Positions 33,108 through 49,762 of a stretch of 64,000 bases of DNA are shown here, piece after piece. Below the pieces are notes generated by a model. That model made no database searches and had not been told where the DNA came from. It saw only the letters and a list, made by a program, of their open reading frames with translations. The stretch is from Engelhardtia mirabilis (GTDB taxonomy: Bacteria > Planctomycetota > UBA1135 > GCA-002686595), in NCBI GenBank assembly GCA_007751255.1, contig CP036296.1, forward strand, positions 3,162,001 through 3,226,000, given 5' to 3'. The position numbers and the translations under genes were made by a program. How positions within the stretch are numbered: position 1 is the first letter of the stretch; every line of letters begins with the position of its first letter.

Positions 33108-33152
33108 TGGCGCGCCCGCCAGGATTCGAACCTGGGACCGTCCGATTAGAAG
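33108..33152 (-). pseudogene. 3' half of tRNA-Arg(TCT), cut in the anticodon loop
   Basis: Read on the minus strand this gives the loop CTTCTAA, the 3' anticodon stem TCGGA, a five-base variable loop, T-arm CCAGG-TTCGAAT-CCTGG, acceptor CGGGCGC, G73 and an encoded CCA. The 5' half is missing here. It lies at 49924-49962, and its acceptor GCGCCCG pairs perfectly with this one. The anticodon stems also match apart from one C-A pair. The gene was therefore split by the insertion of 33146-49930. Confidence 0.93.
33146..33152. other. Left attachment core (attL side)
   Basis: TTAGAAG joins the tRNA 3' half on the left to element DNA (GGAGCGGAGC) on the right. Seven bases match the overlap length typical for tyrosine recombinases acting on anticodon loops. 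Confidence 0.8.
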
Positions 33153-33242
33153 GGAGCGGAGCTGCGGCCGTAAGTCGTGGCGGGGCCACCGCTCCGGCCG
33201 GTCGGCTTCGGCGCGCGGAAGGTCGGCGTAAGGGATGGAGGG

Positions 33243-34016
33243 CTACTTCTTGCTCAGCAGCTCGACCATCATCGCCTTCCGCTGGCGCTCCTCGATCTCC
33301 GGGTCCACGACCTGGATGAACTCGACCGCGCTGAACCCGTCGCCACGCTTCCGATTCTGCGGTGGCTCCAGGCCCTCGATGAGCAGGGCCTCCATCGTGG
33401 CGATGAGGTTCTCGATGTTGAACGTCTCGCTCGGGCTGTCCGCCAGCGTCCCATCCGACGTTACGGGCAGAATCCCGAACCACGAGAAGCGATCCCACCG
33501 CCCGCCGAGGCGGTCGGTCGTGTGCTGCCGGAGCCGCTGGCCCATCGCTTGGTCCGTGGTCCGACCCACGTATACGACCTCCCGGCGGTCGTGGAGGAGG
33601 TACACCCCGCGCTGCCCCATGAAGTCCACGCTGCTGCTCCCGGGCTGCTGCTGCCCGAGGAGCCTGGGCTTCTCCCACAGGACCCGCTCCCGGAGCCAGT
33701 ACATGCCGAAGGCGTTGATCAGGCCGGTCTCCGGCTCGTCCTCATCCTCGCTCGGGGACACGGCCTCCGACGGCACCTTGGGCACCTGCCCGCGAAGGCG
33801 GTAGACGCCCCGGCTGACCCTCTCGAAGGGCGATTGGTCCCCGTCGTTCTTGAGAGAGATGGAGAGTTGGGCCGCGACGGTGGAGGCCGGGGTCGCACCG
33901 AGGTTCTCCCGGAGCCCCTGCTGGGCGACCTCCTGGGCGATCTGGTTGTAGTGGAGGGGCTCCGTAGCCCCTTCGAGCACCTTGACGATCGCTTCGTGCC
34001 AGCTGAGTTCGGTCAT
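33243..34016 (-). CDS. HARE-HTH domain fused to GIY-YIG nuclease
   Basis: A 257-residue protein. Residues about 1-75 (LSWHEAIVKVLEGA...LHYNQIAQEV...VSRGVYRL) form a HARE-HTH winged helix, a domain seen in restriction and chromatin proteins. An acidic linker (80-100) follows. Residues 137-225 hold a GIY-YIG nuclease fold: GVYLLHDRREVVYVGRT (137-153), RLRQH (161-165) and EALLIEGLEPPQNRKRG with the catalytic Glu at about 209 and Asn221. It is probably a DNA-cutting defence protein. It lies at the element's left end, 25 bp downstream of the tRNA-Arg gene on the same strand. Confidence 0.82.
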   Translation of the reverse strand: MTELSWHEAIVKVLEGATEPLHYNQIAQEVAQQGLRENLGATPASTVAAQLSISLKNDGDQSPFERVSRGVYRLRGQVPKVPSEAVSPSEDEDEPETGLINAFGMYWLRERVLWEKPRLLGQQQPGSSSVDFMGQRGVYLLHDRREVVYVGRTTDQAMGQRLRQHTTDRLGGRWDRFSWFGILPVTSDGTLADSPSETFNIENLIATMEALLIEGLEPPQNRKRGDGFSAVEFIQVVDPEIEERQRKAMMVELLSKK

Positions 34017-34041
34017 GTCGGGGATCGGCTGCGGACTGCGG

Positions 34042-34118
34042 TGGTACCCCCGGCTGGACTCGAACCAGCAACCTTCGCATTAGAAGTGCGGTGCACTATC
34101 CAATTGTGCTACGGGGGC
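34042..34118 (-). tRNA. Intact tRNA-Arg (anticodon TCT) carried by the element
   Basis: A complete cloverleaf: acceptor GCCCCCG/CGGGGGT (ending in a G-U pair), D-arm GCAC/GTGC with AATTGGATA, anticodon loop CTTCTAA on stem CCGCA/TGCGA, variable AGGTT, T-arm GCTGG/CCAGC with TTCGAGT, A73 and encoded CCA. Its stems differ from the split host tRNA-Arg(TCT), and the discriminator is A rather than G. It is therefore not a duplicate of the host gene. It decodes AGA (and possibly AGG), the job of the broken gene. Confidence 0.95.
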
Positions 34119-34204
34119 GCGACCCTAGGGTACCTGGCGGCCGGAGGGGGTCCTAGCCTGCGACCGGCTGGCATCGGGCGCGTGGGGTCCCTACGTTGGC
34201 GCCG

Positions 34205-35374
34205 ATGGCGGAGTACCTCGACTCCAGCGGCGGCGCCCCCGAGCAGGCCCTTGGGCACTGGCTCGCAGCCGCCCTTGTGCCCGGTGTGCGCGCGCTGCGA
34301 CTCCAGACGGGGTTCTTCTCGATCGGGTCGCTTCGCGATCACCTGGAGACGCTCCGGGATGTCGAGGTCGTCCGGCTCGTCCTCGGATCGAACGCTCCCG
34401 AGCAGCCGACGGTCGAGGACATCCGCGCGCTCCTCCCGCTGCTGACCGATCCTGCGAGCCGATCCCTGACGATCGTCAGCTGCGCCGGACCCGCTCTGTT
34501 CCACCCAAAGACCATTCACTTGGTCGCGCCCGATGGCACTGCCCGGGGATACGCGGGATCCGCGAACATGACCGAGGCAGGCCTCGGCTTGAACATCGAA
34601 GCGGGCGTGGTTCTCGGGCCGGAGAGCGCGGATGCCCTTGCGGCGATGGCCGCCGCGATCGACTCATGGGCGGCGAGGAACGACGAGGGGGTGTTCCACG
34701 TTCGCAACGGCGACGACCTCGATGCCCTGCTGGACCAGGGAGTGCTCCAGACGGCCGCGCATCGCCGGGCCTCCAGGACCGCGAGCCGAGCAGCTGGCGA
34801 AGCCCGTCGCCGAGTGCCCGGGCTCCGCCGCGATCGACTCTGGCGCCCGGCAACGCGCATCGCTGCCGACGGGACTGGAGAGGAAGCGGCCGAGGCCGTA
34901 GCGGAAGGAACCCCCGGGCCGACGCGGGGCAGGGTCGAGCACCTCCGATGGTGCAAGCGGTTGAAGCGCTCCGATGCCCAGCAAGTCCCGGCGGGGACGA
35001 ACCCCACGGGTAAGCTGCGCCTCGCGCAGGCACGCTTCCCGATCGACCAACAGAGGTACTTCCGGGAGGAGTTCTTCGGCGACGCGACCTGGGCTGAGGT
35101 CGAGCGCAGGGGGACTCTCTACGAGGAGTGCAGCGTGCCCTTCTCCGTCTCGATCCACGGGGTGGACCTCGGCGAGCAGGTCCTGCGCGTAGACCACGCC
35201 TCGCACCGCGTCGCGGACCAGAACAACGTGCCCACCGTGCTCGGGTGGGGGCCGGTGCTCGGCCGCCACCTGCGAGAGCACTCGGAGGTCGACAACTGGG
35301 TTGTGATCGAGCGGCACGAGGACGGCACCTACTCGCTCGCGATCACGGACCAGCGCCCCGGTTGGGCACCCTAG
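34205..35374 (+). CDS. PLD-family nuclease, probable restriction endonuclease
   Basis: A 389-residue protein. A single HxK motif with its partner residues is present: HPKTIHLV (100-107) and GSANMTEAGLGLN (118-130). This is the phospholipase-D-type nuclease active site as in NgoFVII/BfiI-like type II enzymes, which work as dimers. The C-terminal region (about 280-385) looks beta-rich and could be a B3-like DNA-binding domain. It faces an adenine methyltransferase gene tail to tail, and one CTAG supplies both stop codons. A restriction-modification pair is the simplest reading. I chose the ATG at 34205 over a TTG at 34196. Confidence 0.78.
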   Translation: MAEYLDSSGGAPEQALGHWLAAALVPGVRALRLQTGFFSIGSLRDHLETLRDVEVVRLVLGSNAPEQPTVEDIRALLPLLTDPASRSLTIVSCAGPALFHPKTIHLVAPDGTARGYAGSANMTEAGLGLNIEAGVVLGPESADALAAMAAAIDSWAARNDEGVFHVRNGDDLDALLDQGVLQTAAHRRASRTASRAAGEARRRVPGLRRDRLWRPATRIAADGTGEEAAEAVAEGTPGPTRGRVEHLRWCKRLKRSDAQQVPAGTNPTGKLRLAQARFPIDQQRYFREEFFGDATWAEVERRGTLYEECSVPFSVSIHGVDLGEQVLRVDHASHRVADQNNVPTVLGWGPVLGRHLREHSEVDNWVVIERHEDGTYSLAITDQRPGWAP

Positions 35375-36993
35375 GTCCGCATGCGCCGCGCTAGCAGTCG
35401 GGCCCGAGCGCCTTCGAGGATCGGGAGCAGGTCGGCAAACCCGGGCACGCGCTTGCAGAGGCGCTCGTCCACGGCACTGCGCACCACCTCGCCGCCGTCG
35501 CGCTGCCCACCCGCCGCACGGCTCTCCTCGTCGAGGGCGGCAAGGTCGCCCGCCATGTCCGCGACGGGCACGAGCAAGCGGGCGATCTCCGAGGGGATGA
35601 GTTCCAAGACGCCGCCGCCGTAGGTTCGGCCCTCCAACTCGGTCGAGAGAAGGGTCAGAGTGTTCTGGAAGCCAGCCGCGAGGTCCCGCGCCCTCCCCGC
35701 GAACTTGGGCAGCATCTCGCCCCGGTAGATCGTGTCCGTGGTCAGGACGCCTGCCTCGTTCAGCAGCAGGCGGTGGTAGAGGTGCGCGCGCTTGGTCATC
35801 ATCAGCGCGCCCGACTTGATGTGCGGAACGCGGTACCACGGCTCGCGGATGCGGCACTTGTACCGGGTGGGCAGGCCCTCGGCCTCGCCGCGCGAGAGGT
35901 AGGCCACCGCACCGTTGATGGGCGCCGGGCGATCGGCTGAGAAGTCGAGGAGCCACGCGCGACTCCCGGCCCGCCTCGCGGCGGCGTGGTCGCCCTTGCG
36001 GAAGACGATGCCGGGGCAGTCTGACGTGCGGGCGACGAACGGCCGAGCCCAGGCGTCGAGGTCATGCTCGCGTCGCGTCATGTCGTCCACCGTGAAGAAG
36101 CCGTTGGCTCCGGTGACGATGGAGACCTCGATTCGGGCCACCTTGCCCAGTGCGTGGATCCCGGGGAGGTCGCGCGCGGCTTGGAACGCCGCCGCCTCGT
36201 CCTCGGTCAAGTAGTACCGCGTCCAGGACGGCGCGTGGTCCGGCACGGTGTGCTTCCATCGCGTCTCGTGTCCGGGTTGGTGTTCGCAGAAGGTCACGCT
36301 CCGCGCGGTCGCCCCGCGTTGGGCGCGCCTGCCGCTCAACACCACCACGTCCTGCAGCAGCTCCGCGAAGGTGTCCCTTGGGAAGAGGTCCACCTGGAGC
36401 GATGCAAAGTGCCGGACGAGGTACGACCGGAACGCACCGGCCGAGACCGTCGAGACGAACTCGCTGGGGAGCACTAGCGCGAACGCCCCGCCGGGCCGGA
36501 GCCTTGACAGCGAGACGATCGCGAAGGGAATCCAAAGGTTCGACACACCGCGCAGCTCGATGCCCAGCCGCGCTGCTTGGCGCTCGAACAGCTCACGCTG
36601 GCGGGGTTCGACGAACTGGTAGCGGACGAAGGGCGGGTTGCCGACGACGGCATCGAAGGCGGCAGAGCTTCGCTCTGACCAGTCGAAGAAGCACCTCTCT
36701 TCAACGGTGCCGCCAAGGCGGTGCCGTCGAAGGGTTGCCGCGCACTTCGATGCCTCGGCATCGTTCAGCTCGACGGCCGTTACCTTGGGTGGCGGGATGA
36801 CCCCGCCGTCGCGCGCCTCGGCGAGCCCACGGAGGAACGCCCCGTCACCGGCCGAGGGTTCGAGCCAGGTCACGGCGCCGCCCGCGTCGCGCGTCAGGGA
36901 GCGGACCCGACGAATGCAGAAGTCCACGACGGGGCCTGCGGTGTAGTAGCCGCCGCGCAGCTTGTCGGCTGTGACTTCGTTGATGAGCTTCAA
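35371..36993 (-). CDS. N6-adenine DNA methyltransferase (Eco57I/TaqI-like)
   Basis: A 540-residue protein starting at a TTG (36993); the open frame extends far upstream, but that part is antisense to other genes. SAM-binding motif LEPSAGDGAF is at about 44-53 and catalytic NPPF at 119-122. The N-terminal KLRGGYYTAG resembles the start of type II N6-adenine enzymes, and the C-terminal half should be the target-recognition region. It would protect the sites cut by the convergent PLD-type nuclease. No specificity subunit or translocase is present, which argues against type I. Confidence 0.85.
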   Translation of the reverse strand: MKLINEVTADKLRGGYYTAGPVVDFCIRRVRSLTRDAGGAVTWLEPSAGDGAFLRGLAEARDGGVIPPPKVTAVELNDAEASKCAATLRRHRLGGTVEERCFFDWSERSSAAFDAVVGNPPFVRYQFVEPRQRELFERQAARLGIELRGVSNLWIPFAIVSLSRLRPGGAFALVLPSEFVSTVSAGAFRSYLVRHFASLQVDLFPRDTFAELLQDVVVLSGRRAQRGATARSVTFCEHQPGHETRWKHTVPDHAPSWTRYYLTEDEAAAFQAARDLPGIHALGKVARIEVSIVTGANGFFTVDDMTRREHDLDAWARPFVARTSDCPGIVFRKGDHAAARRAGSRAWLLDFSADRPAPINGAVAYLSRGEAEGLPTRYKCRIREPWYRVPHIKSGALMMTKRAHLYHRLLLNEAGVLTTDTIYRGEMLPKFAGRARDLAAGFQNTLTLLSTELEGRTYGGGVLELIPSEIARLLVPVADMAGDLAALDEESRAAGGQRDGGEVVRSAVDERLCKRVPGFADLLPILEGARARLLARRMRT

Positions 36994-37055
36994 TGTGCCC
37001 CCGTCATGCAGAACGCGGTGTGCCGGATCAAGTGCGAGCTGAGCAACCCGCGCGG

Positions 37056-37262
37056 CTACTTCTTGCGCCGGTTGTAGGGGCTCTGGTTGACCGGCTTGAG
37101 CGACACGCCCAGCTCGCTCGCGTGCGAGTAGACGGCCGCCTTCGACCGCCCCAGCTCGTGGGCGATGAGTCCGGTCGGGGTGTTGCCCTTCGCCAGCTTG
37201 CGAAGCTGCGCGTCGGTGGGCGGGGTCCAGGGCTTGCCGCTGTTCTTCGGGGTCTTGGCCAT
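37056..37262 (-). CDS. Small basic protein with HTH-like motif
   Basis: A 68-residue protein, MAKTPKNSGKPWTP at its start, with LRKLAKGNTPTGLIAHELGRS and AVYSHASELG forming a helix-turn-helix-like pattern. Closely similar short proteins occur widely in bacteria and phages without known function. The ATG at 37262 is preferred to an upstream start 42 bases earlier. It is basic and probably binds nucleic acid. It lies upstream of the methyltransferase gene on the same strand and might control it. Confidence 0.65.
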   Translation of the reverse strand: MAKTPKNSGKPWTPPTDAQLRKLAKGNTPTGLIAHELGRSKAAVYSHASELGVSLKPVNQSPYNRRKK

Positions 37263-37490
37263 CTCGGGCTCCTTGGGTTCGGGTCGATGGCCGGACCCTA
37301 ACAAGTACCGAACAGCGAATCGAGCGCCGAGTCTGCGAATCTCGGCGGTGGGCCGCGCCCCGGGCAGGCGCCCCTCCAGGCCGCACAGAGCGACTTCCTA
37401 GGGGTCCGTGGACCCGAGGTGCCCGATCCAGCGCGGCGGCCACGGGCGGGCTCCTGGGGCCTCCTGCGCGGTCGGCGGGCGGAAGGCGCA
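37263..37490 (+). other. Intergenic region, no supported gene
   Basis: Together with the next 170 bases this forms a 398-bp gap between divergent units. It should contain promoters for the small HTH protein and for the zinc-ribbon/DUF4062 pair. The only clear structure is the pair of palindromes at 37491-37547. Confidence 0.35.
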
Positions 37491-37547
37491 GCTGCCGATC
37501 TGACAGCGGAGGCCCGGACGCGGGCGGAGAGCTGCCAGTCTGGCAGC
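37491..37547. promoter_or_regulatory. Two palindromic operator-like sites, 40 bp apart
   Basis: GCTGCCGATCTGACAGC (37491-37507) and GCTGCCAGTCTGGCAGC (37531-37547) share GCTGCC..TCTG.CAGC, and both are dyads. They start exactly 40 bp apart, close to four helical turns, so a dimeric repressor could bind both on one face. They lie about 115-170 bp upstream of the zinc-ribbon gene and between divergent genes. Confidence 0.55.
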
Positions 37548-37660
37548 CGCCGGACTGCCCAAGGCCCCTTGGTGGATTGGTACGGCTTTTGTTTGGGTGT
37601 CGGGATCGAACCGGCGGGGCTCGCTCGCCGTGAGCAACACCGCGAGGGGGAGGCCCCAAC

Positions 37661-37810
37661 ATGAAGGTCGTACTTGTCATCTGCCACCGCTGCCGCCACC
37701 AGGAGAAGGTCGAGATCCTGACCGAGGAGGAGAAGCGCGACCCGAGGGTGCCCCGCTCCCCGGTCCGTTGCCGGCGCTGCGGCAACCCCGACGTGGAGGT
37801 GCGCTCGTGA
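37661..37810 (+). CDS. Tiny zinc-ribbon protein
   Basis: A 49-residue protein with two CxxC pairs (CHRC near 8-11 and CRRC near 38-41), the pattern of a zinc ribbon. The frame starts at an ATG after a GAGGGGGAGG run. Its stop overlaps the GTG start of the DUF4062 gene (GTGA), so the two are translationally coupled. Such ribbons often bind nucleic acid. Its small size limits confidence, but the coupling and cysteine spacing support it. Confidence 0.6.
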   Translation: MKVVLVICHRCRHQEKVEILTEEEKRDPRVPRSPVRCRRCGNPDVEVRS

Positions 37811-38982
37811 CCGAGCGGCCCCGCGTGTTCGTCAGCTCCGTGATGGATGGCTTCGGCGAGTACCGGGCCGCTGCCCGCGCCGGGATCGAGGCGGCGGGGT
37901 GCGAGCCCGTGCTCGTCGAGGACAACCCCTCGCTCGACGCGAGCCCGCGCAACGCCTGCCTCGATGGCGTCGAGAGCTGCGATGCCGTCGTGGTCGTCGT
38001 CGGCGACCGGGGAGGCTACACCGCGCCGTCGGGCAAGCTCGTGGTCGAGGAGGAGTACGAGCACGCGGTGGGGCGCAGCATCCCGACCCTCGTGTTCATC
38101 CAGGATGGCGTCGAGCGCGACGAGGACGCCGACGGGCTCGCCGCGCGGTTGTCCGAGTACGTGGACGGCCGGTTCCGCCGGTCGTTCAATGGCCCCGACG
38201 ACCTGGCGCGCGAGGTCGAGGCGGCCGTACGCACGGTCGCGGGAGCGCGGAGGAGTGCTGGCATGGACAGGCAGAGGATGGACGGGCTCCTCGCGGAACC
38301 GCCCGACTTCGGGCACGAGGTCGTGCTGCGCGTCGTAGTCGCGCCGGGACGGCAGGACGAGACAGTGGTGCCGGTCGAGCAGCTCGACGGTGACGACTTC
38401 CGGTACGACTTCGTTCGCATCGGCACGGAGCGCGGCGTGGGCCTGTTCGACCAGAATGCCGCGCGTGAGAGCGAGCGCGGCCCGGGGTCGCTGGTCGTGA
38501 CCCAGCGCGGCTCCGGTGCACCGGGGCAGACGGTCCGCGTCGAGATGACCGAGGACGGCTGGCTCACGATCGACGCGAACATGACCGGCGCGGACGAGCG
38601 CTCCCGGCGCGACCCGATGGCAGGCTTCGGCCTCTACCCGGTCGAGGTCGAGGAGATCGCGGCGCGCGCCGCGTTCGCCCTCCGCTTCGCGCGGGGCGTG
38701 TACGAGCACCTCGACCCGCATGGGCGGCACGCCGGGCTCCTCGTGAACGCCAGCCTCGGCTCGCTGAACGGGAAGCTCATCGCGCACCGCCGCGACCGCG
38801 AGCGCCTCAAGGGCCAGATGGGCGGCATGTTTGGCCAGCGGGACGGCGAGGTCCCCGTCAGCTTCGACCGGCCCGAGCGGGTCAGCCGCGCGGACGCTGG
38901 CTGGGTCGATGACCTCGCCCACCGGGTCGCCGGACGGCTGGAGCGGCGCGTCAACACGAGCGACCCCGCCCGCCGCTTCTAG
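37807..38982 (+). CDS. DUF4062 domain-containing protein
   Basis: A 391-residue protein starting at a GTG coupled to the zinc-ribbon gene. Residues 6-140 form a DUF4062 domain (RVFVSSVMDGFGEYRAAARA, CDAVVVVVGDRGGY, GRSIPTLVFIQDG), a TIR/SIR2-like flavodoxin-type fold often found in signalling and defence proteins. The rest (about 165-391) is an unknown mixed domain, perhaps an effector. No NTPase motif is seen. Its place in the cargo end of the element suggests a role in defence or inter-element conflict; this is inference. Confidence 0.72.
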   Translation: MTERPRVFVSSVMDGFGEYRAAARAGIEAAGCEPVLVEDNPSLDASPRNACLDGVESCDAVVVVVGDRGGYTAPSGKLVVEEEYEHAVGRSIPTLVFIQDGVERDEDADGLAARLSEYVDGRFRRSFNGPDDLAREVEAAVRTVAGARRSAGMDRQRMDGLLAEPPDFGHEVVLRVVVAPGRQDETVVPVEQLDGDDFRYDFVRIGTERGVGLFDQNAARESERGPGSLVVTQRGSGAPGQTVRVEMTEDGWLTIDANMTGADERSRRDPMAGFGLYPVEVEEIAARAAFALRFARGVYEHLDPHGRHAGLLVNASLGSLNGKLIAHRRDRERLKGQMGGMFGQRDGEVPVSFDRPERVSRADAGWVDDLAHRVAGRLERRVNTSDPARRF

Positions 38983-39158
38983 CTGGCCTCCTGCTCGCGC
39001 GGGCGGCGGCGATGGCCCGATGCCCAGGACGGGCGGCCGCGCGCAGAGAGCGCCAGAGCGGCAGCGCCCTGTGGAGACGAAGGAGCCCCGACCCCGCGCG
39101 GTGGCGGAGCCGAGGCTCGTGAACGCCCGACCGATGGTGGCCGGGCCAGGGGCGCCCG

Positions 39159-39488
39159 TTAGGCGGCAGCCTGCTCGTCGCCCGCAGGGGCGATGTCGAA
39201 GCACCAGGCCGACTCGTCCGAGGTGCGGTCCTCGAAGTCGATGCAGACCGAGACGCGACCGCCGAACGGGATGCCGTCCCCGTCGCTGGCCATGAAGCCC
39301 TCGATGTCGGCGAGGTGGTTCTCGGTGCCGTGCAGGAGGAAGTGCAGGATCCGCCTGTACGTCTCCGCCGTGATCCACACCCAGGAGTCGTGCTCGCCCT
39401 CGAAGCCCCGGAGGTAGTGGTCGTGCCCGCCGTCGGGGCGGCGCTGCGCGAGGAGCTGGTCGAGGGCGCCTTGAATCGGGTACTTCAT
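39159..39488 (-). CDS. Small acidic protein, unknown
   Basis: A 109-residue acidic protein (MKYPIQGALDQLLAQ...) with no motif I recognise. Its ATG overlaps the upstream gene's TGA by four bases, so the two form a coupled pair. The size, acidity and absence of a membrane segment would suit a small regulator, inhibitor or DNA mimic, but nothing proves this. Confidence 0.6.
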   Translation of the reverse strand: MKYPIQGALDQLLAQRRPDGGHDHYLRGFEGEHDSWVWITAETYRRILHFLLHGTENHLADIEGFMASDGDGIPFGGRVSVCIDFEDRTSDESAWCFDIAPAGDEQAAA

Positions 39489-39781
39489 GCCGCCTGGACC
39501 TCCCACGCCGGGACGATCATCGTCGTGTCGTCCATGTGGACCGCGAGGCGCCCGCCCTCGGCGACGATCCGAAGGACGGGGATGTGGCCCTCGCACTCCA
39601 TCCGCTCCGTGACCCAGTTGATGACGGCATCGAAGTCGCTGCTGCGCACCTTGTGCCAGCGGCCGTCGTCGGCGAGGAGGAAGTTGGCGCGTGCCCCCTG
39701 CTCCGCGTCGTCCACGTGGCTGTAGAAGCGACCGTGGGGAGTGGGCAGGTGCGGGACGCGCAGTTTCACTTGCTCGTTCAT
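39485..39781 (-). CDS. Small protein, unknown
   Basis: A 98-residue protein beginning MNEQVKLRVPHLP. It has a mixed alpha/beta pattern and no recognised family. It is first in a coupled pair with the acidic protein. The ATG at 39781 follows a GAGG stretch. A near-perfect palindrome (CCTCCACCGTGGAGG, 39829-39843) about 50 bp upstream may regulate the pair. Confidence 0.6.
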   Translation of the reverse strand: MNEQVKLRVPHLPTPHGRFYSHVDDAEQGARANFLLADDGRWHKVRSSDFDAVINWVTERMECEGHIPVLRIVAEGGRLAVHMDDTTMIVPAWEVQAA

Positions 39782-40106
39782 GTGAGGGGCCTCCTTGAGC
39801 CCCGAAGCCCGGCGTGATCCGCTTGCCGCCTCCACCGTGGAGGGCGCGCGAGTGGCTCGGTCGCCGGTCACATGTAGGCTCCCTCGCTCACTGGGCCCGT
39901 GACGGGGCGTTCTGGCGCGCCGACCGGGCGCCCGTGCAGGTCCGCCCGAAAGGCGCCCAGGTACGCCCGGGCGCACGCGCAGATTCCTCGCAAGAATCCA
40001 GAGCGCCTCCCCCTCGGTCCTCGGAGCCGTGCGCGCGGAGTGTGCCCTCCGGTGCCGCGCGTGGATCGGTCAGCGGCGCGCGGAAGGCCCGCGCGCGGGC
40101 CGTGGC
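39782..40106 (+). other. Intergenic region with one operator-like palindrome
   Basis: These 325 bp hold no supported gene. The clear feature is CCTCCACCGTGGAGG at 39829-39843, a dyad with one central base, upstream of the small-protein pair. The remainder is GC-rich without visible repeats. Confidence 0.4.
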
Positions 40107-40796
40107 CTACTCGGCCAGCGCGGCGCGCAGCTCGGCCAGGGCCCGGAGCTCAAGTTGCCGGGCGCGCTCGATGCCCACCCCGAGTACGTCGCCGATCTCG
40201 CGCAGGGTCATCGGCATGCCGCCGTCGAGCCCGTACCGGAGCCGGACCACGCGGCCGTCGCGGGGATTCCGAAGGCGGCCCAGGGCGGCGCGGAGGCGCT
40301 CGCGGTCCTCTGCGCGGCAGGCGACCTCGTAGGGGTCGGTCGCGGTGCTCCCGTCCTCGGGCTCGGGCGCGCCATCGGCGTCGTCCAGCGATGCGACCAC
40401 CGGGCGCGGGAACGCGGGCCGCTTCGGCGCACGGATGGGCCCACCCATGAGGGTCGGGAGGTCGTCCCGGATCGCGCCATTCAGCCCGTGGAAGGCCCAC
40501 GTGGAGAAGGCCGCGCCCGAGGCGTGGAAGGGGTCGAACAGCTCGGCCGCCCGGCGCAGGCCGAGGAAGGCAACCTGATGCAGGTCCTCGTAGGGGACGG
40601 CCGGGAGCCGCTTGTGCCAGTACCCCGCCGCGTGTTCGAGCAGGTGGAGGTTGTCCTCGACCAGGCGATCCACCCGGCGGCGCTCGGCGGCGACGAGCTG
40701 CCCAGCAAGGAGGCGGGCGCGGCCGAGGGGGTCGCGCCACTGGCGACGAGCGGCGAGCTGGCGGCGCTCGCGGGTGGTATCGAGGGTGGCGATCAA
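40107..40796 (-). CDS. Element-encoded sigma-70 family RNA polymerase sigma factor
   Basis: A 229-residue protein from a TTG start. Region 2 (about 46-115) shows DLHQVAFLGLRRAAELFDP and AFSTWAFHGLNGAIR, the core-binding and -10 recognition pattern. Region 4 (about 165-225) has VVRLRYGLDGGMPMTLREIG and VGIERARQLELRALAEL, a helix-turn-helix. Between them is a Pro/Asp-rich linker. It would redirect host RNA polymerase to element (or helper) promoters. It is distinct from the host ECF factor at 58269-59024 in having a WhiG/RpoD-like layout. No anti-sigma partner is adjacent. Confidence 0.82.
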   Translation of the reverse strand: MIATLDTTRERRQLAARRQWRDPLGRARLLAGQLVAAERRRVDRLVEDNLHLLEHAAGYWHKRLPAVPYEDLHQVAFLGLRRAAELFDPFHASGAAFSTWAFHGLNGAIRDDLPTLMGGPIRAPKRPAFPRPVVASLDDADGAPEPEDGSTATDPYEVACRAEDRERLRAALGRLRNPRDGRVVRLRYGLDGGMPMTLREIGDVLGVGIERARQLELRALAELRAALAE

Positions 40797-40919
40797 GACC
40801 GAGGGCCTACCGCGCCGCGCACACGGGTTGGAGCGGAGCTGGCGCGCCGTGGTGCTCGCTGGGGCGCGTGGCCTCCCGGCCGGGAAGGTCGCCCAGCGCG
40901 GCGAGGATCGTGCGCAGGG

Positions 40920-41168
40920 TCACGCGCGCCGCGTCGAGGCGCGCCACTCCCGCGCGGCCTTGAGCTCAGGGTCGCGCGCGTCGTCGGCGCCAGTGTCCCG
41001 CCCGGTGACGAGCAGGACGCACGCGGGCACGGACGCGCCCTCCTCCTTCGCCAGGGCGCGGACGGTCGCCTCGACCATCGGAGCGCCGATGGCGCGCTCG
41101 AACACGAAGGCCGCCGCCAGCACGTGGCGCGTCTCCGGGCTCAGCCGGGATAGGAGGCTGTGGCTCAT
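40920..41168 (-). CDS. Small helical protein, unknown
   Basis: An 82-residue protein (MSHSLLSRLSPETRHVL...) that is alanine-rich and helical. It has no family I can name. Its ATG overlaps the upstream gene's stop by four bases. It belongs to a run of coupled small genes in the middle of the element. Confidence 0.55.
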   Translation of the reverse strand: MSHSLLSRLSPETRHVLAAAFVFERAIGAPMVEATVRALAKEEGASVPACVLLVTGRDTGADDARDPELKAAREWRASTRRA

Positions 41169-41560
41169 CCTCCGTACACGATGCCGTAGAGGGAGCGGAT
41201 GTCGTCGTCCTCGTGGAGCAGGCGGCTCGCTGCTTGCTCGACCGATTCCCCGGCGCGCTTGCGCAGTCGCGCGTGATCCATGAGCAAGCGGTCGAAGCGG
41301 GGATCGCCGGACACCCCCTTCGCCAGCGCCGCGCTCGACTCGGCAACGTCGGCGGCTTGGCCGAGGTCGTACAGCTTCTGCATGCGCGCGTCGTCCTCGC
41401 ACAGGCGAGCGAACGACACGGCGACCGACTCGCCCGGCCGGGCCTCGCGCTTGGCGAGGTCGAGCATGGCGGACTCGGCCTGGTCACGGGTCACCCTCGG
41501 GCTCGCGCCCTTCGACACGCGATCGGCCTCGGACAGCATCTTGGACAGGTTGTCGCTCAC
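41165..41560 (-). CDS. Helical protein, unknown
   Basis: A 131-residue protein from a GTG start (41560) that overlaps the upstream stop by four bases. It is rich in Ala, Asp, Glu and Arg and predicted wholly helical, with a DNLSKMLSEADRVSKG beginning. Such proteins in phages are often minor structural or regulatory factors, but nothing here is specific. Confidence 0.6.
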   Translation of the reverse strand: MSDNLSKMLSEADRVSKGASPRVTRDQAESAMLDLAKREARPGESVAVSFARLCEDDARMQKLYDLGQAADVAESSAALAKGVSGDPRFDRLLMDHARLRKRAGESVEQAASRLLHEDDDIRSLYGIVYGG

Positions 41561-41730
41561 GACGCCACCTCGATCTTGCCGGTGTCGATCAGCTCGCGGA
41601 TGACGCGGGGGCCGATGGCGAGGTGACGGCGGTTGAGCACGTCGCCGGGGTTGTAGGTGCGTCCGCCGAGGCGGAAGGTGGCAAGGACGTTGAACGTCCA
41701 CTGCTGAACATCGGGCTTGGGGTAGCTCAT
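41557..41730 (-). CDS. Small protein, unknown
   Basis: A 57-residue protein beginning MSYPKPDVQQWTFNVLATF. It is compact, with alternating hydrophobic residues, and its stop overlaps the next gene's start by four bases. It resembles short phage head-tail joining or regulatory proteins in size only. No firm function. Confidence 0.5.
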   Translation of the reverse strand: MSYPKPDVQQWTFNVLATFRLGGRTYNPGDVLNRRHLAIGPRVIRELIDTGKIEVAS

Positions 41731-41758
41731 TGCTTGGGCTCTTTCTCGGTCTGGTGGG

Positions 41759-42199
41759 TCAACGGGGCTCGGCGATGGCGAAGATGAATGCGCAGCGCGC
41801 CGCGCTGTTCGATTCGACGAGGCGGCGAAGCGCCGCGCCGACGGGCTCGCCTTCTCGGCGGTGGGGCGCAGCCAGCGACACGAGGTCGGCCCACGTGTAG
41901 AGGCGCATGCTGTACTCGTCGCTCCCGGAAACGAGGCCCAGCGCGTCGAGAAGCGGCCGAGGGTCGCAGTCGCGCTCGAACATGCGCGCGATGCCGCCCG
42001 CAACGCGGAGGGCCCGAAGGACCGGGCAGCGCTCGCGCGCGAGGCGCTCGAACACCTCGTGTGGCAGCTCGCCGGGGCGGATGTCGTCGCTGCCCTCGCT
42101 GGTCCACCACAGGACCTCGCGGGCGTAGGCTGCGCTCGACCCGGCCGGGGAGAGCGTCCCGTTGCAGACCCCTTGGATGTTGGAGAGGAGCGTGGTCAC
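41759..42199 (-). CDS. Protein of unknown function
   Basis: A 146-residue protein from a GTG start at 42199, overlapping the coiled-coil gene's stop by four bases. It has two tryptophan-rich patches (VLWWTSEGSDD, LYTWADLVSLA) and a helical C-terminal half. I recognise no family. It is 28 bp upstream of the small gene at 41557-41730. Confidence 0.6.
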   Translation of the reverse strand: MTTLLSNIQGVCNGTLSPAGSSAAYAREVLWWTSEGSDDIRPGELPHEVFERLARERCPVLRALRVAGGIARMFERDCDPRPLLDALGLVSGSDEYSMRLYTWADLVSLAAPHRREGEPVGAALRRLVESNSAARCAFIFAIAEPR

Positions 42200-42753
42200 T
42201 CGCCCTCGACCTCGGCGAACTCGGTGATGAGACCGCGCTCGCTCTCGACGAGCGGGCGGCGGTGCATGGCCGGGATGACCGGGACCTCCAGCACGCGCGA
42301 GAGGGCCGGGGCGAAGTGGGCGAAGGCTCCCCGCGCCGAGTAGCGCGCGCGGCGGATGACGCGGCCCGCGTCCGAGCCCGTGCCGCCGGTGTCGAGCGCG
42401 AGGAGCTTCTCGTACTCGGCCCCGAGCTTTCGCATGGCGTCGTCCACGCGCTTGGCCTGGGCCAGGCGGGCCTTGCGGTTGCGATTCTGGGCACGCTCGC
42501 GCTCGCGGCGCGCCTTCTCGGCCTCGGCCTGGGCAGCCTCGCGCTCTCTTCGGAGAGCGATAGGCCGAGCCGCTTCGAGTTCCTCGATGAGGGAGCGGAG
42601 GCGCGCCACGTCAGCGCGTGCGCCCTCAGCTCCGGCCTCATCACCATCGGTGATCGCCTCACCCAGCCGGGATTGGCTCTCCTCCAACTCCGCAGTCGCG
42701 GTGGCAAGGGCGGCGGTCAGTTCCTGGGATCGGGTCTTGGTCTTGGTCTGCAT
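42196..42753 (-). CDS. Coiled-coil protein, unknown
   Basis: A 185-residue protein. Residues about 5-105 are a long charged coiled coil (heptads of Leu, Ala and Arg with runs of Glu). A short C-terminal domain (about 125-185) follows. It may be a scaffold-like or structural protein, but its composition does not identify it. The ATG at 42753 lies 13 bp after the stop of the GIY-YIG endonuclease gene. Confidence 0.6.
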   Translation of the reverse strand: MQTKTKTRSQELTAALATATAELEESQSRLGEAITDGDEAGAEGARADVARLRSLIEELEAARPIALRREREAAQAEAEKARRERERAQNRNRKARLAQAKRVDDAMRKLGAEYEKLLALDTGGTGSDAGRVIRRARYSARGAFAHFAPALSRVLEVPVIPAMHRRPLVESERGLITEFAEVEGE

Positions 42754-42766
42754 GGTGGGTCCTTGG

Positions 42767-43753
42767 TCAGGCGGCGTACTTGTTGAGGAGAAGGGCCGCG
42801 AGGATCCACTGGACCTCGCGTTGAACTCTGGCGCGCTCGGCCTTGGCGCGTTGCCGGCCCTCGCTAATTGCTTGGCGGCGAGCCGCCTTCTGGTCGGGCG
42901 TCTCGTTCGCGTAGCGCTTGAGCTGGCGCGCGCTGCGCCGCTCCCGCTCGGCCGGGTCCTCGCAGAGCTTCCGCTCCGATGCACTGAGCTTCGCCCTCGT
43001 CTCGGGACGGCGCACCGCAGCCGCGTTCTTCTCCAACCACGCGGGATCCTGGGCCAGCGCGCGGTTCCTCTCGGTGGCCTTCTCGATGCGGGCGGCGCGT
43101 TGCTTGGGCGTCTCGTTCGCGTAGCGCTTGAGGTTGCCAGCGCTGTTCCTAGCGCGGCCCTCGCGGGACCTGTTCACGTTCGAGACTGACTCGGCATGCC
43201 GAGTCTTGTAGTCGGGGTCGGCATAGCGCTCCTTGAGCATGGCCCGATGTCGCTTGCGCTCGGCCGGGTCCTGGTAGCGCCTTCGATTGGTTGCTCCACG
43301 CTTGACCCCGATCGCCTCTCGTTCCTCGGGCGAGAGCGAGGCCCAGACCGAGCGGGACGCGGCGCCGGTCTTCTCGCGCTCGGCGGGGTCCTCGAAGCGG
43401 CGGAGATTGGCCGCACTGATGCGCGCCTTCGTCTCCTCGCTCGCCAGGCCGGAATCCTCGCCGCCCGTCACGAGGTTGTAGGACCACTTGGAGTTGGCAG
43501 TCTCCAGCCCGACGAGCGCGCGCTCCATTGCCCTCGCCTCCTCGCGGGTGTCGAACACGTCGAGGATGGTCTTGGAGAACGCCCCGGGGTGCGCCTTGAC
43601 GGCGCGCCGGATCGCGCGCCCGGAGCCCATGTACGCCGAGTCGCTCTCCGGGGTCCTGTACTTCGGAGCCGTCCTGATACCCACGTAGTAGCGGCAGCCG
43701 CCCTCGGGGAGGGTGCGCGTCAGGAGGTAGCAGTAGTGGATGCGCTTCGTCAT
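42767..43753 (-). CDS. GIY-YIG endonuclease with NUMOD-like repeats
   Basis: A 328-residue protein. The N-terminal 110 residues carry a GIY-YIG-like fold (CYLLTRTLPEGGCRYYVGIR, then AMERALVGLETANSKWSYN). The rest consists of several basic repeat blocks of the NUMOD3 kind: (R)RFEDPAEREK, RRYQDPAERKRH, KRYANETPKQRAA, KLCEDPAERERR and KRYANETPDQKAA. These repeats bind DNA in free-standing homing endonucleases. It could spread itself between related elements or phages. It lies as an independent gene, not inside an intron or another coding region. Confidence 0.8.
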   Translation of the reverse strand: MTKRIHYCYLLTRTLPEGGCRYYVGIRTAPKYRTPESDSAYMGSGRAIRRAVKAHPGAFSKTILDVFDTREEARAMERALVGLETANSKWSYNLVTGGEDSGLASEETKARISAANLRRFEDPAEREKTGAASRSVWASLSPEEREAIGVKRGATNRRRYQDPAERKRHRAMLKERYADPDYKTRHAESVSNVNRSREGRARNSAGNLKRYANETPKQRAARIEKATERNRALAQDPAWLEKNAAAVRRPETRAKLSASERKLCEDPAERERRSARQLKRYANETPDQKAARRQAISEGRQRAKAERARVQREVQWILAALLLNKYAA

Positions 43754-44034
43754 TGGGCTAGGTGGGGTCGCCGCCCAGGCAGCACGACGACCCCGGGTTG
43801 ACGCGCAACCGAACCCCGGAGACCCGGGGGTGTGAGGTGGGACTCGCCGCCGGGCGGTGCTTCGGCGACGAGTCCCGAGGAGAGTCCATGACCAAGCAAG
43901 CAGGTCGGACCCATGCGCTTCGCTGACCGGGACGCCGGACCAAGACCCCTGGCCCTGCGGAGCGCGTCTTCGACGATCCGGCGCTCTGTGCGCACGGATC
44001 CTGTGTTCGGTGTGGCGGGCGTGGCGACCTTCAA
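43750..44034 (-). CDS. Possible small coupled gene between terminase-like and endonuclease genes
   Basis: An open frame of 94 residues. Its TTG start overlaps the terminase-like stop (TTGA), and its stop overlaps the endonuclease ATG (ATGA). This coupling matches the rest of the cluster. The protein itself is Pro/Gly/Arg-rich without a fold that I can see, so it may only be a fortuitous frame in a 277-bp gap. Confidence 0.25.
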   Translation of the reverse strand: MKVATPATPNTGSVRTERRIVEDALRRARGLGPASRSAKRMGPTCLLGHGLSSGLVAEAPPGGESHLTPPGLRGSVARQPGVVVLPGRRPHLAQ

Positions 44035-44621
44035 CGCTCGCGCTCCGTCAAGGGAAGGTGAGGGGAAGGCGCGTGGCCGTTCCGGGGGGCGTCGGTGCCG
44101 TCGCGGATGGCCTTCTCGCGCTCCAGGATGCGCAGCAGATCCTCGCGGCTCTCGGGCGAGAGCTGCTCAAGCGGGATGCCCTTGGCGGGCTTCTTGGTCA
44201 CGGTCTGCTCGACCGTCGCCTCGGTCTGCATGCGCGGCGTGAATGCGGGCACATGCGCGCGCACGGCTTCGAGCAGGAGCTTGTCGGACCGGATCGAACG
44301 CCAGCCGATCACCTCGCCCTTCGCGTTCTGGATGGGAACCTGGTCGCCCGTCATCGCGCGGCGATACAGCTCCGCCAAGAGGTCGCCGTGGTGCGCCTCG
44401 ATCGCGTCGTCCCAGGCGGCGTCGAACTCGGGGTCACGTGCGCGCGCGTCTCGGAACGTGGAGATGGCACTCGTGCCCTTCGCGTTCGGGCTCGCCTCGC
44501 GTGCGGCGCGCGTCGCAACGCCGTGGATGCGCAGCGCTTCGAGGAAGGCAGTCTTGCGCGCTTCGGTGAGGCGCTGTCGGTTGGCCCGCGAGAGGCTGTC
44601 GTTGGTCCGTCGATTGGTCAC
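44031..44621 (-). CDS. Terminase-small-subunit-like HTH protein
   Basis: A 196-residue protein from a GTG start. The first 100 residues (TEARKTAFLEALRIHGVATRAA..., AISTFRDARARDPEFDAAWDDAIE) resemble phage terminase small subunits, which bind the packaging site: a helix-turn-helix followed by FDAAWDDA-type helices. No large terminase is present in the element. In satellites such a protein can redirect a helper's packaging machinery. The GTG at 44621 is preferred; an upstream extension is low complexity. Confidence 0.6.
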   Translation of the reverse strand: MTNRRTNDSLSRANRQRLTEARKTAFLEALRIHGVATRAAREASPNAKGTSAISTFRDARARDPEFDAAWDDAIEAHHGDLLAELYRRAMTGDQVPIQNAKGEVIGWRSIRSDKLLLEAVRAHVPAFTPRMQTEATVEQTVTKKPAKGIPLEQLSPESREDLLRILEREKAIRDGTDAPRNGHAPSPHLPLTERER

Positions 44622-44790
44622 GGCCCGTACTCGTCGTACGGGTCCACAGGCGGTTTCTACCCCGCTCTGGAGGAATCTACCCCCTGTGCGACGCGGCGCA
44701 GCTCGGCCGGTCGGCGTTGGTGTGCGCCGGTTTCGCGCTCGACGACACCGAGTGCGCGACGCTGCTGCGAGCGACGCCCAACGCGGTGCC

Positions 44791-44897
44791 GGTCCGGGGT
44801 CCGGTCTGGGGTCGAGCCCACCCGGTCCGGGGTCGCGGTCTGGGGTATTTCCCACCGCGCGACACCGAGGGCAGCCCGGTCCGACCGGTCCGGGGTC
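44791..44897 (+). repeat. Iteron-like array, forward arm
   Basis: The unit GGTC(C/T)GGGGTC occurs at 44791, 44803, 44824, 44837 (last base changed) and 44887. A shorter GGTCCGACC lies at 44878. Spacings of 12, 21, 13 and 50 bp separate the starts. Confidence 0.65.
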
Positions 44898-44999
44898 TTC
44901 TCAAGCTCTTAGCGCGCGAGGCAGGTAGTAGCTCCTCCGGCCCCCCTTGGGCTATCCGTCCGAGCGCTCGCGGGCCGCGCGCGGCGGAGGGGCGGGGAA

Positions 45000-45106
45000 G
45001 ACCCCAGCCCGGTCGGACCGCCCCGCCCGCGCCATGTTCCCGGTGTCGAGAGTGGTGGTTTCCGGCCCCGCCGACCCCAGACCGACCCCGGACCGGACCC
45101 CGGACC
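45000..45106 (-). repeat. Iteron-like array, reverse arm
   Basis: The same 11-bp unit on the opposite strand occurs at 45073-45083, 45084-45094 and 45096-45106, with a partial copy at 45000. It abuts the 3' end of the primase gene (45110). With the forward arm it makes a two-armed array over about 315 bp. Confidence 0.65.
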
Positions 45107-45109
45107 GGC

Positions 45110-47650
45110 CTACCCGAGCACGTCGTGATCGGGGTCGTCGCGGGCCTCGGCAGCGTCGCGCTGCCGGATCCCGACGTAGGCGGGCAGTCTCGCGGGCCTG
45201 GGCATCTTCCCCGCCCGCACGCGCCCGGCCGTGGCCGCGTACAGGTCGCGCGAGAACACCGCCTCCTCGGCGATCGGCTCGCCGCGCGCGAGGCACCACT
45301 CCCGCCAGACGGCGTAGAGCTGGCCCTTCTCGACGCGCGCCTCGGGGTCGAGCACGCACACGTCGCGCACGAAGGCCGAGACCGGAGAGGCCATGTCGAG
45401 GAGGTCCTGCACGGCGTCCCGCGACGAGCCCGGCAGCACGAAGTGCCCACGGTCCCGGAGCCGACGCCAGCCCTCGACGGCCCAGTTGAGGATGCCCGGC
45501 AGCTCGCTGAGCAGCCGCGCCGTCAGCCCGTGGTCCTCGCGGCCCAGGAAGCTCTCGGTCATGACGAGCGGCACGAACCGATTGGCGAGCGCGCCGCTCG
45601 CGTCGGAGAACCTCGGCAGCTCGTTGGTCATGATGACGAAGCGCACGGCCAGCGTGCCCGTCCAGGCGGTCTTGTTCTTCCTGTCCGCCGTGACCAGGTC
45701 CTCGCCGCTGATGCGCAGCAGGTTCTCCGCGATCGTGGCAGGGTCGCTGCGCTTGCCGAGTCGCATGTCGGCGACGATCGCCAGCTGCTTCCCGATCAGG
45801 GGTTGCAGGCCAAAGTTGCCGCCGAGCGTGCGCATGTCGCTGCCCACCGCGTTGGCCTCGCCGACGAGCCGCGTGAGCACCCGTCCGATGGTGCCCTTCC
45901 CCGACCGCGCGGGGCCGACGAGCAGAAACACCTTCTGCTGCGACGTGTCGGGCACGAGCAGGTAGCCGAACACCTCTTGGAGCACGCCGATGCTGTCCGG
46001 GTCCTTCGGCCAGAGCTGGCCGAGGAACGCGAGCCAGCCCTCGGGCGGCAGCGCGTCCGGGTCGTAGGCGATCTCCAGCGCGTTCCGCGTGAAGAAGCTC
46101 GGCGTGGCCTGGAGCAGCCGCCCCGTCGGCAGGTGCAGCAGCCCGTTCGCGCACGAGATGATCTCGCGCGGCGGCGGCCCGGGCTCCGCGATCCAGCACG
46201 GCGGCGCGTACAGGTCGCGCGCCCGGATCGTGACGGACTCCAACGCCCCGAGCACCTCGGTCACGTTCGAGCGCATGGGCTTGAACGGCCCCGGCACCTG
46301 CTTCAACCCCCACAGCCGACGTGCGCGCTCCAGGAAGGCGAACACGCCCGCCGAGACGATCCCCGACTCCACCTCGAAGTACGCGCCTCGGCCGTAGTCG
46401 AGCCAGTCGCCGTTGTGGAAGAACAGGTGCGGTGCCTCGCGCTCGACGTACAGCCGCGCCGACGGCCTCGGGTCGCCCGGGTCGAGCAGCGGGCTTGCGT
46501 CGTCCGTCGCCGCCTCGACCTCGCCCACCTCGTTCCGCGCGCGCTCGATCTGCCGGTCGGCGCAGGCCTCGGGGTTCTTCTGGTCGAGGACGTGGGCGCT
46601 GATGCCCCAGCCCTCGTCCAGCAGCAGCGCGCGGATCGTGTCGTCGTCCGCGCCCGCGCGCACAAGCTCGCAGGCGACGTACCACACGGCCGCCGAGCGG
46701 TCCCCGGTCCAGTCCGACCCGCGCCTGAGCCCGAACATCGACGGCGCGCCGCCGAAGCGGCCCGGGTCGTCGTCGGGGTCGCACCCCTGCGCGATGACGA
46801 CCTTGCACAGGTCGGAGACACCCTCGGGCTGGTGGTCGAGCGTGTCGAGCCGCTCTACGCCGGACGGCGCGGGGGCGGCCCGCCCGTTGCCGCTCGCCTT
46901 CGAGCCCTGGCCCGCCGACCGTACCGGCTCGGCCTTCTCGAAGCCGCCGAGGTCGTGCAGCTCGTCGCAGAACTCGACGACGGCCGCGAGCGCTTCCGTG
47001 CGGCCCTTGGCGCGCTTCTTCGCGTCCGGCCGGTTGATCGTGCCGGGGAGCCGCATGACGCGATCGACGTTATGCGTGTGGTCGCCGCCGAGCAGCTCCT
47101 CCAGCTTGCGGTTGTACCGCTCGGCCTCGGCCGCCGCCTCGTCCGTCCCGTCGAGCGAGGCCGGGATCTTGAGCCGCCAGAACGCCTGGTAGCCACCGCC
47201 CGAGTCGGTGATGCAGGTCGGCCTAGGCAGCCCCGACGGCGGATCCTGGAGCAGGGCGAGGATCCGCTGGCGCTCGCCCCCGTTGTGCGCGGCCTTGTCC
47301 ACGTCCTCCGGCGGCGCCGACGGGTCGAGGTCCACATGCAGCACGTACATCGCGGCGATGTCCGCCTTCGTGGGCTTCTTCTTGACCGTCTGCTTCCGGC
47401 AGCCGTTCGGCGTGAAGTAGATGTTGCGCTGCCGCTTCGTCCCGTGCTCTTCGAGCCACGCCAGCAGCCGCCCGCTGCCCACGTCGTGCTGCCCGAAGGT
47501 GTCGGTGAACGTCGCCGCGCCCTTCTTGGGCTTGTCGGGGACGATCGCCGTCAACACCCACGGGCCGCGCGGCATCCACTTGGACAGGAACTCGATCGAC
47601 GCAGCGTAGTCCGGCTCGGGGGTCGGCGTTTGGTCCGGCTGGGAAGACAT
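45110..47650 (-). CDS. P4-type primase-helicase (phage/plasmid primase)
   Basis: An 846-residue protein. The N-terminal part (about 95-210) looks like a primase domain (MYVLHVDLDPSA, DSGGGYQAFWRLK, VDRVMRLPGTINRP). The C-terminal part is a D5/P4-type superfamily 3 helicase with Walker A GPARSGKGTIGR (about 578-589), a B-like motif near KQLAIVADMR (about 618) and RFVIMTNELPRFSD. It would open and prime replication at an element origin. The ATG at 47650 overlaps the preceding gene's stop by one base (TGATG). The iteron-like array lies just past its 3' end. Confidence 0.88.
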   Translation of the reverse strand: MSSQPDQTPTPEPDYAASIEFLSKWMPRGPWVLTAIVPDKPKKGAATFTDTFGQHDVGSGRLLAWLEEHGTKRQRNIYFTPNGCRKQTVKKKPTKADIAAMYVLHVDLDPSAPPEDVDKAAHNGGERQRILALLQDPPSGLPRPTCITDSGGGYQAFWRLKIPASLDGTDEAAAEAERYNRKLEELLGGDHTHNVDRVMRLPGTINRPDAKKRAKGRTEALAAVVEFCDELHDLGGFEKAEPVRSAGQGSKASGNGRAAPAPSGVERLDTLDHQPEGVSDLCKVVIAQGCDPDDDPGRFGGAPSMFGLRRGSDWTGDRSAAVWYVACELVRAGADDDTIRALLLDEGWGISAHVLDQKNPEACADRQIERARNEVGEVEAATDDASPLLDPGDPRPSARLYVEREAPHLFFHNGDWLDYGRGAYFEVESGIVSAGVFAFLERARRLWGLKQVPGPFKPMRSNVTEVLGALESVTIRARDLYAPPCWIAEPGPPPREIISCANGLLHLPTGRLLQATPSFFTRNALEIAYDPDALPPEGWLAFLGQLWPKDPDSIGVLQEVFGYLLVPDTSQQKVFLLVGPARSGKGTIGRVLTRLVGEANAVGSDMRTLGGNFGLQPLIGKQLAIVADMRLGKRSDPATIAENLLRISGEDLVTADRKNKTAWTGTLAVRFVIMTNELPRFSDASGALANRFVPLVMTESFLGREDHGLTARLLSELPGILNWAVEGWRRLRDRGHFVLPGSSRDAVQDLLDMASPVSAFVRDVCVLDPEARVEKGQLYAVWREWCLARGEPIAEEAVFSRDLYAATAGRVRAGKMPRPARLPAYVGIRQRDAAEARDDPDHDVLG

Positions 47651-48206: not shown

Positions 48207-48260
48207 GTCAGCCTCCGTGTGATGGAGGTCGATCTCGGGATCAGCGTCCTTGCCCGGCTA

Positions 48261-48278
48261 GGGTCTCCCAGGGGACCC
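48261..48278 (-). terminator. Possible hairpin between integrase and HTH genes
   Basis: GGGTCTCCCAGGGGACCC can pair eight bases with one mismatch around a two-base loop. It lies in a 176-bp gap downstream of the integrase stop. It lacks a clear T-run, so function as a terminator is only possible. Confidence 0.3.
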
Positions 48279-48382
48279 CGATAGGGACGACTGAAGTACA
48301 AGCCCCGGGCCGTTGTTTCCGGGGCGGCTCCGAAGGGCGCCGTGAGATCAGGCTGCGCCCAGCAGTGCCTTCGATTCCTAGG

Positions 48383-49741: not shown

Positions 49742-49762
49742 GCTCGACTCTACCCCGAGGTC

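Follow-up and report, generated by a model that had tools for sequence, protein, structure and literature searches.

The window, by which we mean the whole 64,000-nucleotide stretch of DNA that was analyzed, holds a host tRNA-Arg(UCU) gene that is split in two by an integrated element, and within the element there is a complete tRNA-Arg(UCU) gene. ARAGORN reports three tRNA genes in the window: tRNA-His, tRNA-Pro(UGG), and this tRNA-Arg(UCU).

33108..33152, minus strand: 3' half of the host tRNA-Arg(UCU) gene, starting with the core CTTCTAA (attL)
33146..49930, no strand: integrated element between two anticodon-loop cores (half-gene finder; the flanking halves rejoin to an intact tRNA)
49924..49962, minus strand: 5' half of the host tRNA-Arg(UCU) gene, ending in the core CTTCTAA (attR)
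50133..50208, minus strand: host tRNA-Pro(UGG), the usual upstream neighbor of the target gene (ARAGORN; relatives' loci)

The element and its insertion site

Counted by the half-gene finder from one core copy to the next, the element is 16,778 bp long. The only stretch that both host halves have in common is CTTCTAA, which is the complete 7-nt anticodon loop. When the flanks were joined at this core by a script, they gave a 77-nt tRNA-Arg(UCU) with one of the five anticodon-stem positions unpaired, and this joined gene is identical at 77/77 positions to the intact gene of a relative (G034, loci L098 and L157). Joining the ends of the element in the same way, to form the attP junction of the circular element, gave no tRNA. 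The loop is all that attP and the gene have in common, so the two host halves stay apart after integration and neither end has a whole gene: with a core of just 7 bp the split gene is not rebuilt, and there is no complete host-type tRNA at either end of the element.

33243..34016, minus strand: HARE-HTH protein (PF05066, E 1.6e-14)
34042..34118, minus strand: complete tRNA-Arg(UCU) carried by the element; no other UCU tRNA gene was found in the genome (ARAGORN; census; comparison with the host gene)
34119..34150, minus strand: presumed promoter of the carried tRNA, with a -10-like GGTACCCT 8 nt upstream
34196..35374, plus strand: protein with weak ZacB/DrmC-like matches (best E 2e-4)
35371..39378, minus strand: Eco57I-like restriction-modification methylase, 1335 aa (PF22837, PF07669; MTase_II E 2e-110)
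40107..40796, minus strand: sigma factor-like (phrog_351, E 2.5e-22)
42767..43753, minus strand: homing endonuclease-like (phrog_314, E 3e-22)
44031..44855, minus strand: terminase small subunit-like (phrog_4044, E 7e-23)
45110..47650, minus strand: D5-like primase-helicase (phrog_1829, E 2e-73; PF19263, PF08706)
47988..48206, minus strand: excisionase-like HTH protein (phrog_66, E 2.8e-07; weaker matches to other HTH families)
48383..49741, minus strand: tyrosine integrase, 452 aa (PF00589, PF13356; phrog_1)

The distance from the integrase gene to the start of the host gene's 5' half is 224 bp. Residues R266, H375, R378, H401, and Y412, which we take to be the catalytic residues, are invariant in 14 aligned sequences. 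The Eco57I-like protein is probably defense cargo, and the protein with ZacB/DrmC-like matches is possibly defense cargo too.

Among the 20 ORFs scanned (some in overlapping frames), there was no capsid, portal, or tail family, and the terminase small subunit was the only packaging protein. As for related elements, G892 has a terminase large subunit, and G046 has an ORF with matches to head maturation proteases (E 1e-9), although its best match is a protein of unknown function. Phage satellites such as PICIs are of comparable size and have an integrase, an excisionase, a primase, a terminase subunit, and defense-like cargo. With its integrase, primase, and packaging gene within 16,778 bp and no virion family found, the element looks like a phage satellite by gene content, and no helper phage is known; or it may be a cryptic phage.

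The carried tRNA and the tRNA genes of the host

A preliminary description of this DNA had placed a complete tRNA-Arg(UCU) inside the element, about 0.9 kb from its left end, and ARAGORN agrees (34042-34118, minus strand, 890 bp from the left core). Its anticodon stem also differs from that of the host gene just as described (CCGCA/TGCGA in the carried gene versus CCCGA/TCGGA in the host gene), and the two genes are identical at 58/77 positions.

The carried gene appears to be the only decoder of its kind. Searching the 6.9-Mb genome for tRNAs gave 40 matches at E <= 0.001. Once anticodons were typed for 37 matches and for the three in the window, UCU was seen only once, in the element's gene. 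CTTCTAA occurs nine times in the genome; three of these are the two host halves and the carried gene, and by eye the other six overlap none of the 40 tRNA matches. Apart from the carried gene and the split half, a tolerant tRNA pattern matched nothing in this genome but tRNA-Arg(CCU). So neither the tRNA search, the anticodon typing, the CTTCTAA search, nor the pattern census turned up a second UCU gene, and the target is non-redundant in the host, as far as can be told from a single UCU gene among the 40 found in a genome that is rated 90.5% complete.

Because of that completeness rating and because tRNA-Gly(GCC) was not found in this genome either (using an RNA model, a pattern, and a relative's gene as the query), a second UCU gene may lie in a missing or masked stretch of the genome. 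An arm matching tRNA-Gly(GCC) is present in 17/20 relatives, and ARAGORN agrees in 6/6 loci checked. The tRNA-Gly(GCC) gene may be truly absent, or it may lie in sequence that is missing or masked. We also considered that this gene might be split by another element, and no halves were found.

AGA codons are very rare in the host (4 of 11,303 codons in 22 putative ORFs), so it is an assumption that the UCU tRNA is essential. They are rare in the element as well (2 of 2,733 codons in 6 putative ORFs). The ORFs for both counts were picked by GC3, and some may be false.

We infer that the carried tRNA is transcribed from a host-like promoter. In this genome, a -10 site of the TAnnnT type lies upstream of 23/41 tRNAs or tRNA halves, as compared to 5.9% in shuffled sequences; the motif is not universal, as the other 18 of the 41 upstream regions do not have it. 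The same GGTACCCT is found 10 nt upstream of the host's tRNA-Arg(CCU).

Related elements and their target sites

Homologs of the integrase are present in 9/121 relatives, in 10/154 genomes of the order, and in 11/392 genomes of the phylum. There are also homologs, many of them weak, in 24/377 genomes of the Myxococcota (the phylum of G154), at 22 or more loci of a named genome collection, and at 3 and 17 loci of viral contigs. A script scanned 64 records for separated 5' and 3' halves of a tRNA with the same loop, a pairing anticodon stem, and a pairing acceptor. Whether a tRNA was carried was not a criterion. A pair was counted only if one half was within 1,500 nt of the integrase, except for G064, which has no integrase and entered the set by the tRNA pattern search. 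Outside of the 64 are nine weak matches (L114-L117 and L119-L123), which were scanned for tRNAs or tRNA pieces but not with the half finder; G002:C432, which was likewise scanned for tRNAs or tRNA pieces; G259, G530:C23, G734, G668, G842, G558, G559, G671, G742, and G819; and further weak matches inside the surveyed genomes.

Both halves of a split tRNA were found in 20 of the 64 records (16 in the first pass and 4 after full-length records were read). At 12 of these sites, the target is not rebuilt and a whole separate tRNA with the target's anticodon is carried; five anticodons are represented. At the other 8, the target gene is complete at one end and half of it is repeated at the other end, and in the stretches read there is no further tRNA with that anticodon.

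UCU carried: window, G046, G064
CCU carried: G040, G154
UGU carried: G162
CUU carried: G160
CGU carried: G891, G892, G894, G895, L203
Complete target, 5' half repeated: G002, L112, G719
Complete target, 3' half repeated (the classical mode): G157, G159, G355, G350, G727

Among the carriers, the length of the common core ranges from 7 to 10 bp, and in every case the anticodon loop lies within it. With carried tRNAs picked randomly out of about 40 species, five anticodons would be expected to match about 1 time in 10^8, which is arithmetic and not a test, and the twelve cases are not independent. The weakest of the twelve is G160, whose integrase is distant (31% identity) and whose joined gene has one of five anticodon-stem positions unpaired. 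In G046 and G064, the pattern census found no other UCU arm. No pair of halves was seen in the remaining 44 records; several of these are short contigs with one half visible beside the integrase, and others have only distant integrases (about 26-31% identity), for which the target may be elsewhere.

Carriers and rebuilders are mixed in a tree of the integrases (34 rows; there are several long branches, and 11/31 inner branches are well supported), and the row nearest to the window's integrase is a non-carrier. This is G002, which has the closest integrase (91% identical) and the same attR arm; its integrase lies beside a complete target-type gene and no tRNA is carried. The 3' flank in G002 is host-like, and there is no tRNA-Pro to the left of the 5' half. 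The gene may have been rebuilt from an element-borne 5' half, or this may be a tandem or rearranged site.

A few other loci have pieces of similar arrangements. At G000:C1:461058-469691, the genome's only tRNA-Arg(CCU) is near a related, broken integrase (G000:C1:465809) and short degenerate pieces of that tRNA, which could be the decayed remains of an earlier element of this family. Where other integrases lie near tRNA-Arg(CCU), there are only degenerate pieces in G009 and none in G020. The IMG/VR record G893 (L290, 11189-12656) has two integrases with a whole tRNA-Thr(CGU) just before the second one, which suggests tandem elements. In a member of the Phycisphaerae (L105/L149, G155:C53), the 3' half of tRNA-Thr(UGU) is on one side of the integrase, and the contig ends before a second half; just after the integrase, on the other side from the 3' half, is a whole gene that resembles tRNA-Thr(UGU) but has an odd T loop.

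Some of the elements amount to natural experiments. The host gene of G064 is split by only 575 bp, in which we found no integrase, yet the insert kept a complete carried tRNA-Arg(UCU). At its start, the insert has about 100 bp that resemble known attR arms: identity is 85% over 89 bp with the arm of the window's element and 83% over 102 bp with that of G002. This suggests that G064 is the remnant of a decayed element that retained its tRNA and that an internal deletion that removed the tRNA would be disfavored. Also, G023 may be a completed gene replacement: its UCU gene is 98.7% identical to the carried tRNA of G064, versus about 90% to the host type, and has a similar upstream sequence. This is the single listed UCU gene of G023 (L186, G023:C23:8000-14304, at 5502-5578), and it lies 3.7 kb from tRNA-Pro.

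Elements G891, G892, and G894 carry an identical tRNA-Thr(CGU), but the host genes that they split differ. G162 and G895 are 84% identical over 8.3 kb; G162 targets and carries tRNA-Thr(UGU), and G895 targets and carries tRNA-Thr(CGU). We see the difference between G162 and G895 as a sign that the target and the carried tRNA are switched together.

To find empty sites, tRNA-Pro and its upstream sequence were used as a query, which had matches in 121/121 genomes, including this one. Of the best 30 loci, one was the window's own, with its split half, and 17 have an intact tRNA-Arg(UCU). In 16 of those 17 it is beside tRNA-Pro; in the other (L091) it is at the edge of the locus and no tRNA-Pro was found. 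The remaining 12 of the best 30 show no tRNA-Arg, as the locus stops short of the site or the gene is further off. The clearest comparison is between G018, which has an empty site, and G046, which is from the same genus: both flanks are syntenic, and the intact gene of G018 equals the joined halves of G046 over the first 76 of 77 nt. In L186, L187, and L191, several kb of other sequence lie between tRNA-Pro (or a conserved neighbor gene) and the intact tRNA-Arg(UCU), and by coordinates L189, L190, L192, and L193 have the same wide spacing at this site. The tRNA-Arg(UCU) site looks like a hot spot for insertions in several relatives.

Probable replacement of a broken tRNA and comparison with known systems

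It is very probable, in our view, that this is a satellite-like element with a loop-targeting tyrosine integrase whose own tRNA-Arg(UCU) replaces the host gene that it breaks. The integrase would recombine at the 7-bp anticodon loop of tRNA-Arg(UCU), and the carried tRNA would then take over the decoding of AGA. We infer the takeover because the carried gene is the only UCU gene found, because anticodons are matched in the relatives, and because of the remnant in G064. With a whole tRNA on board, an element would not need an attP that matches one half of the host gene, and related elements could thereby enter hosts whose tRNA sequences differ, which is consistent with G891, G892, and G894. Finally, the integrase and the excisionase together could restore the host gene by precise excision.

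The replacement role that the preliminary description proposed is thus strongly supported by sequence comparison. It had named two results that would count against this role, a second UCU gene elsewhere in the genome and relatives with a broken gene but no tRNA, and neither was found: 0/20 split sites lack both a carried tRNA and a complete target gene. Its suggestion of an addiction-like link is only partly supported. The remnant in G064 suggests that a deletion that removes the tRNA is disfavored, but clean loss of the element should cost nothing because precise excision would rebuild the host gene. Its proposal that the carried tRNA is kept safe from the integrase by its different stems does not hold generally: in the viral record G891, the anticodon arms of the carried and host genes are identical over 17 nt, so a carried copy can be spared even where the stems do not differ.

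We considered other reasons for carrying a tRNA. Compensation for codon usage is often discussed for phage tRNAs (PMC10865867), and the carried tRNA could be cargo that aids the element's own translation, with its match to the target being incidental. But AGA is rare in the element too, the carried anticodon is that of the split gene in 12/12 carriers, and among the 8 elements with a complete target the stretches read contained no other tRNA with that anticodon, so we consider this very unlikely. The discussion of PMC10865867 also mentions anti-defense as a possible role, in which the carried tRNA replaces tRNAs that are cut by the host's anticodon nucleases. Anti-defense seems just as improbable here as codon-usage compensation, given that it does not predict that the carried anticodon would track the target across five anticodons, nor that a tRNA would survive alone in a dead remnant while the host gene is still split; it could be an added benefit. 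Alternatively, an earlier event might have split the host gene, with the carried tRNA being simply the genome's own gene at a new place, or the arrangement might be an assembly artifact. There was no second genome of the genus among the genomes searched, which leaves some room for these ideas. Nevertheless, the rejoined halves equal the intact gene of G034 (77/77), the same architecture recurs in independent assemblies, and G002 has an element with a 91% identical integrase and the same attR arm, so this is the explanation that we credit least.

In short, the case for a mobile element that would replace the tRNA broken by its insertion appears real and well supported, and it recurs. We are about evenly divided on a broader idea: that a whole tRNA gene is a portable part for integration, so that specificity and isoacceptor switch together, homology to the loop alone opens many hosts, and a surviving tRNA can permanently replace the host's, and that this family, many of whose members are not recognizable as phages, drives the turnover of single-copy tRNA genes across phyla. 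The results do suggest that mobile DNA can take the place of tRNA genes that are single-copy and look essential. G162 and G895 provide a coupled difference in target and tRNA, G064 is a dead remnant that kept only the tRNA, and the survey provides a short list of elements for testing tRNA gene replacement.

The principle is already published. The mechanism here would be the same as tRNA-dependent lysogeny, in which, as PMC10865867 describes it, there is a tyrosine integrase, a short core, no reconstruction of the target, and a carried tRNA of the same isotype. It was proven by deleting the phage tRNA in the mycobacteriophages Fionnbharth, Gaia, LeBron, and others (Guerrero-Bustamante and Hatfull 2024, PMC10865867). 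As here, the core is a short part of the host tRNA (8-17 bp there and 7-10 here), commonly at the anticodon loop; the target is not reconstructed; a tRNA of the same isotype is carried; and close relatives rebuild the gene instead. Unlike the window's element, the cases in that paper are temperate phages of Actinobacteria and were tested experimentally. In the window's element no virion gene was recognized, and its core consists of nothing but the 7-bp loop. The targets here also differ from those given for the mycobacteriophages in that they include tRNA-Arg (UCU and CCU) and tRNA-Thr (CGU and UGU). Compared to a phage collection (13 records, none mycobacterial), the integrase has no close relative (the best identity is 25.3%); an integrase this far from every phage record searched appears to be new for such systems.

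Similar replacements are known from other phages. In Sinorhizobium meliloti, prophages like Mesorhizobium phage vB_MloP_Lo5R7ANS sit in tRNA-Leu(UAG); the target is inactivated, a similar isoacceptor comes from the prophage, and the authors note that the host tRNA gene is substituted (PMC11476347, PMC12429752). That case involves two strains, one tRNA, and phage-related elements, and the passages that we consulted describe neither a remnant nor a family with multiple anticodons. Prophage Lj965 of Lactobacillus johnsonii, which is in another phylum, also does not rebuild the tRNA and has a cognate tRNA (cited in PMC10865867). Our literature searches found no satellite with a carried tRNA and no Planctomycetes with a split tRNA, which does not imply that there are none in print; looking for tRNA gene replacement gave a survey of viral tRNAs. 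What appears to be new is that small satellite-like elements use this principle, in Planctomycetota, Myxococcota, and Peregrinibacteria, along with the signs that target and tRNA switch together.

Like the classical islands described for Islander (PMC4383910), the window's element has a tyrosine integrase and sits in a tRNA gene, and 8 of our 20 split sites have a complete target gene at one end, as classical islands do. Unlike those islands, which rebuild the target, the window's element rebuilds it at neither end. As presented in PMC10865867, both the spread of tRNA-dependent integration outside of actinobacteriophages and its relation to the classical rebuilding mode were left open. The elements of the window and of G002 straddle that divide: their integrases are 91% identical, and one element carries a tRNA while the other has a complete target-type gene.
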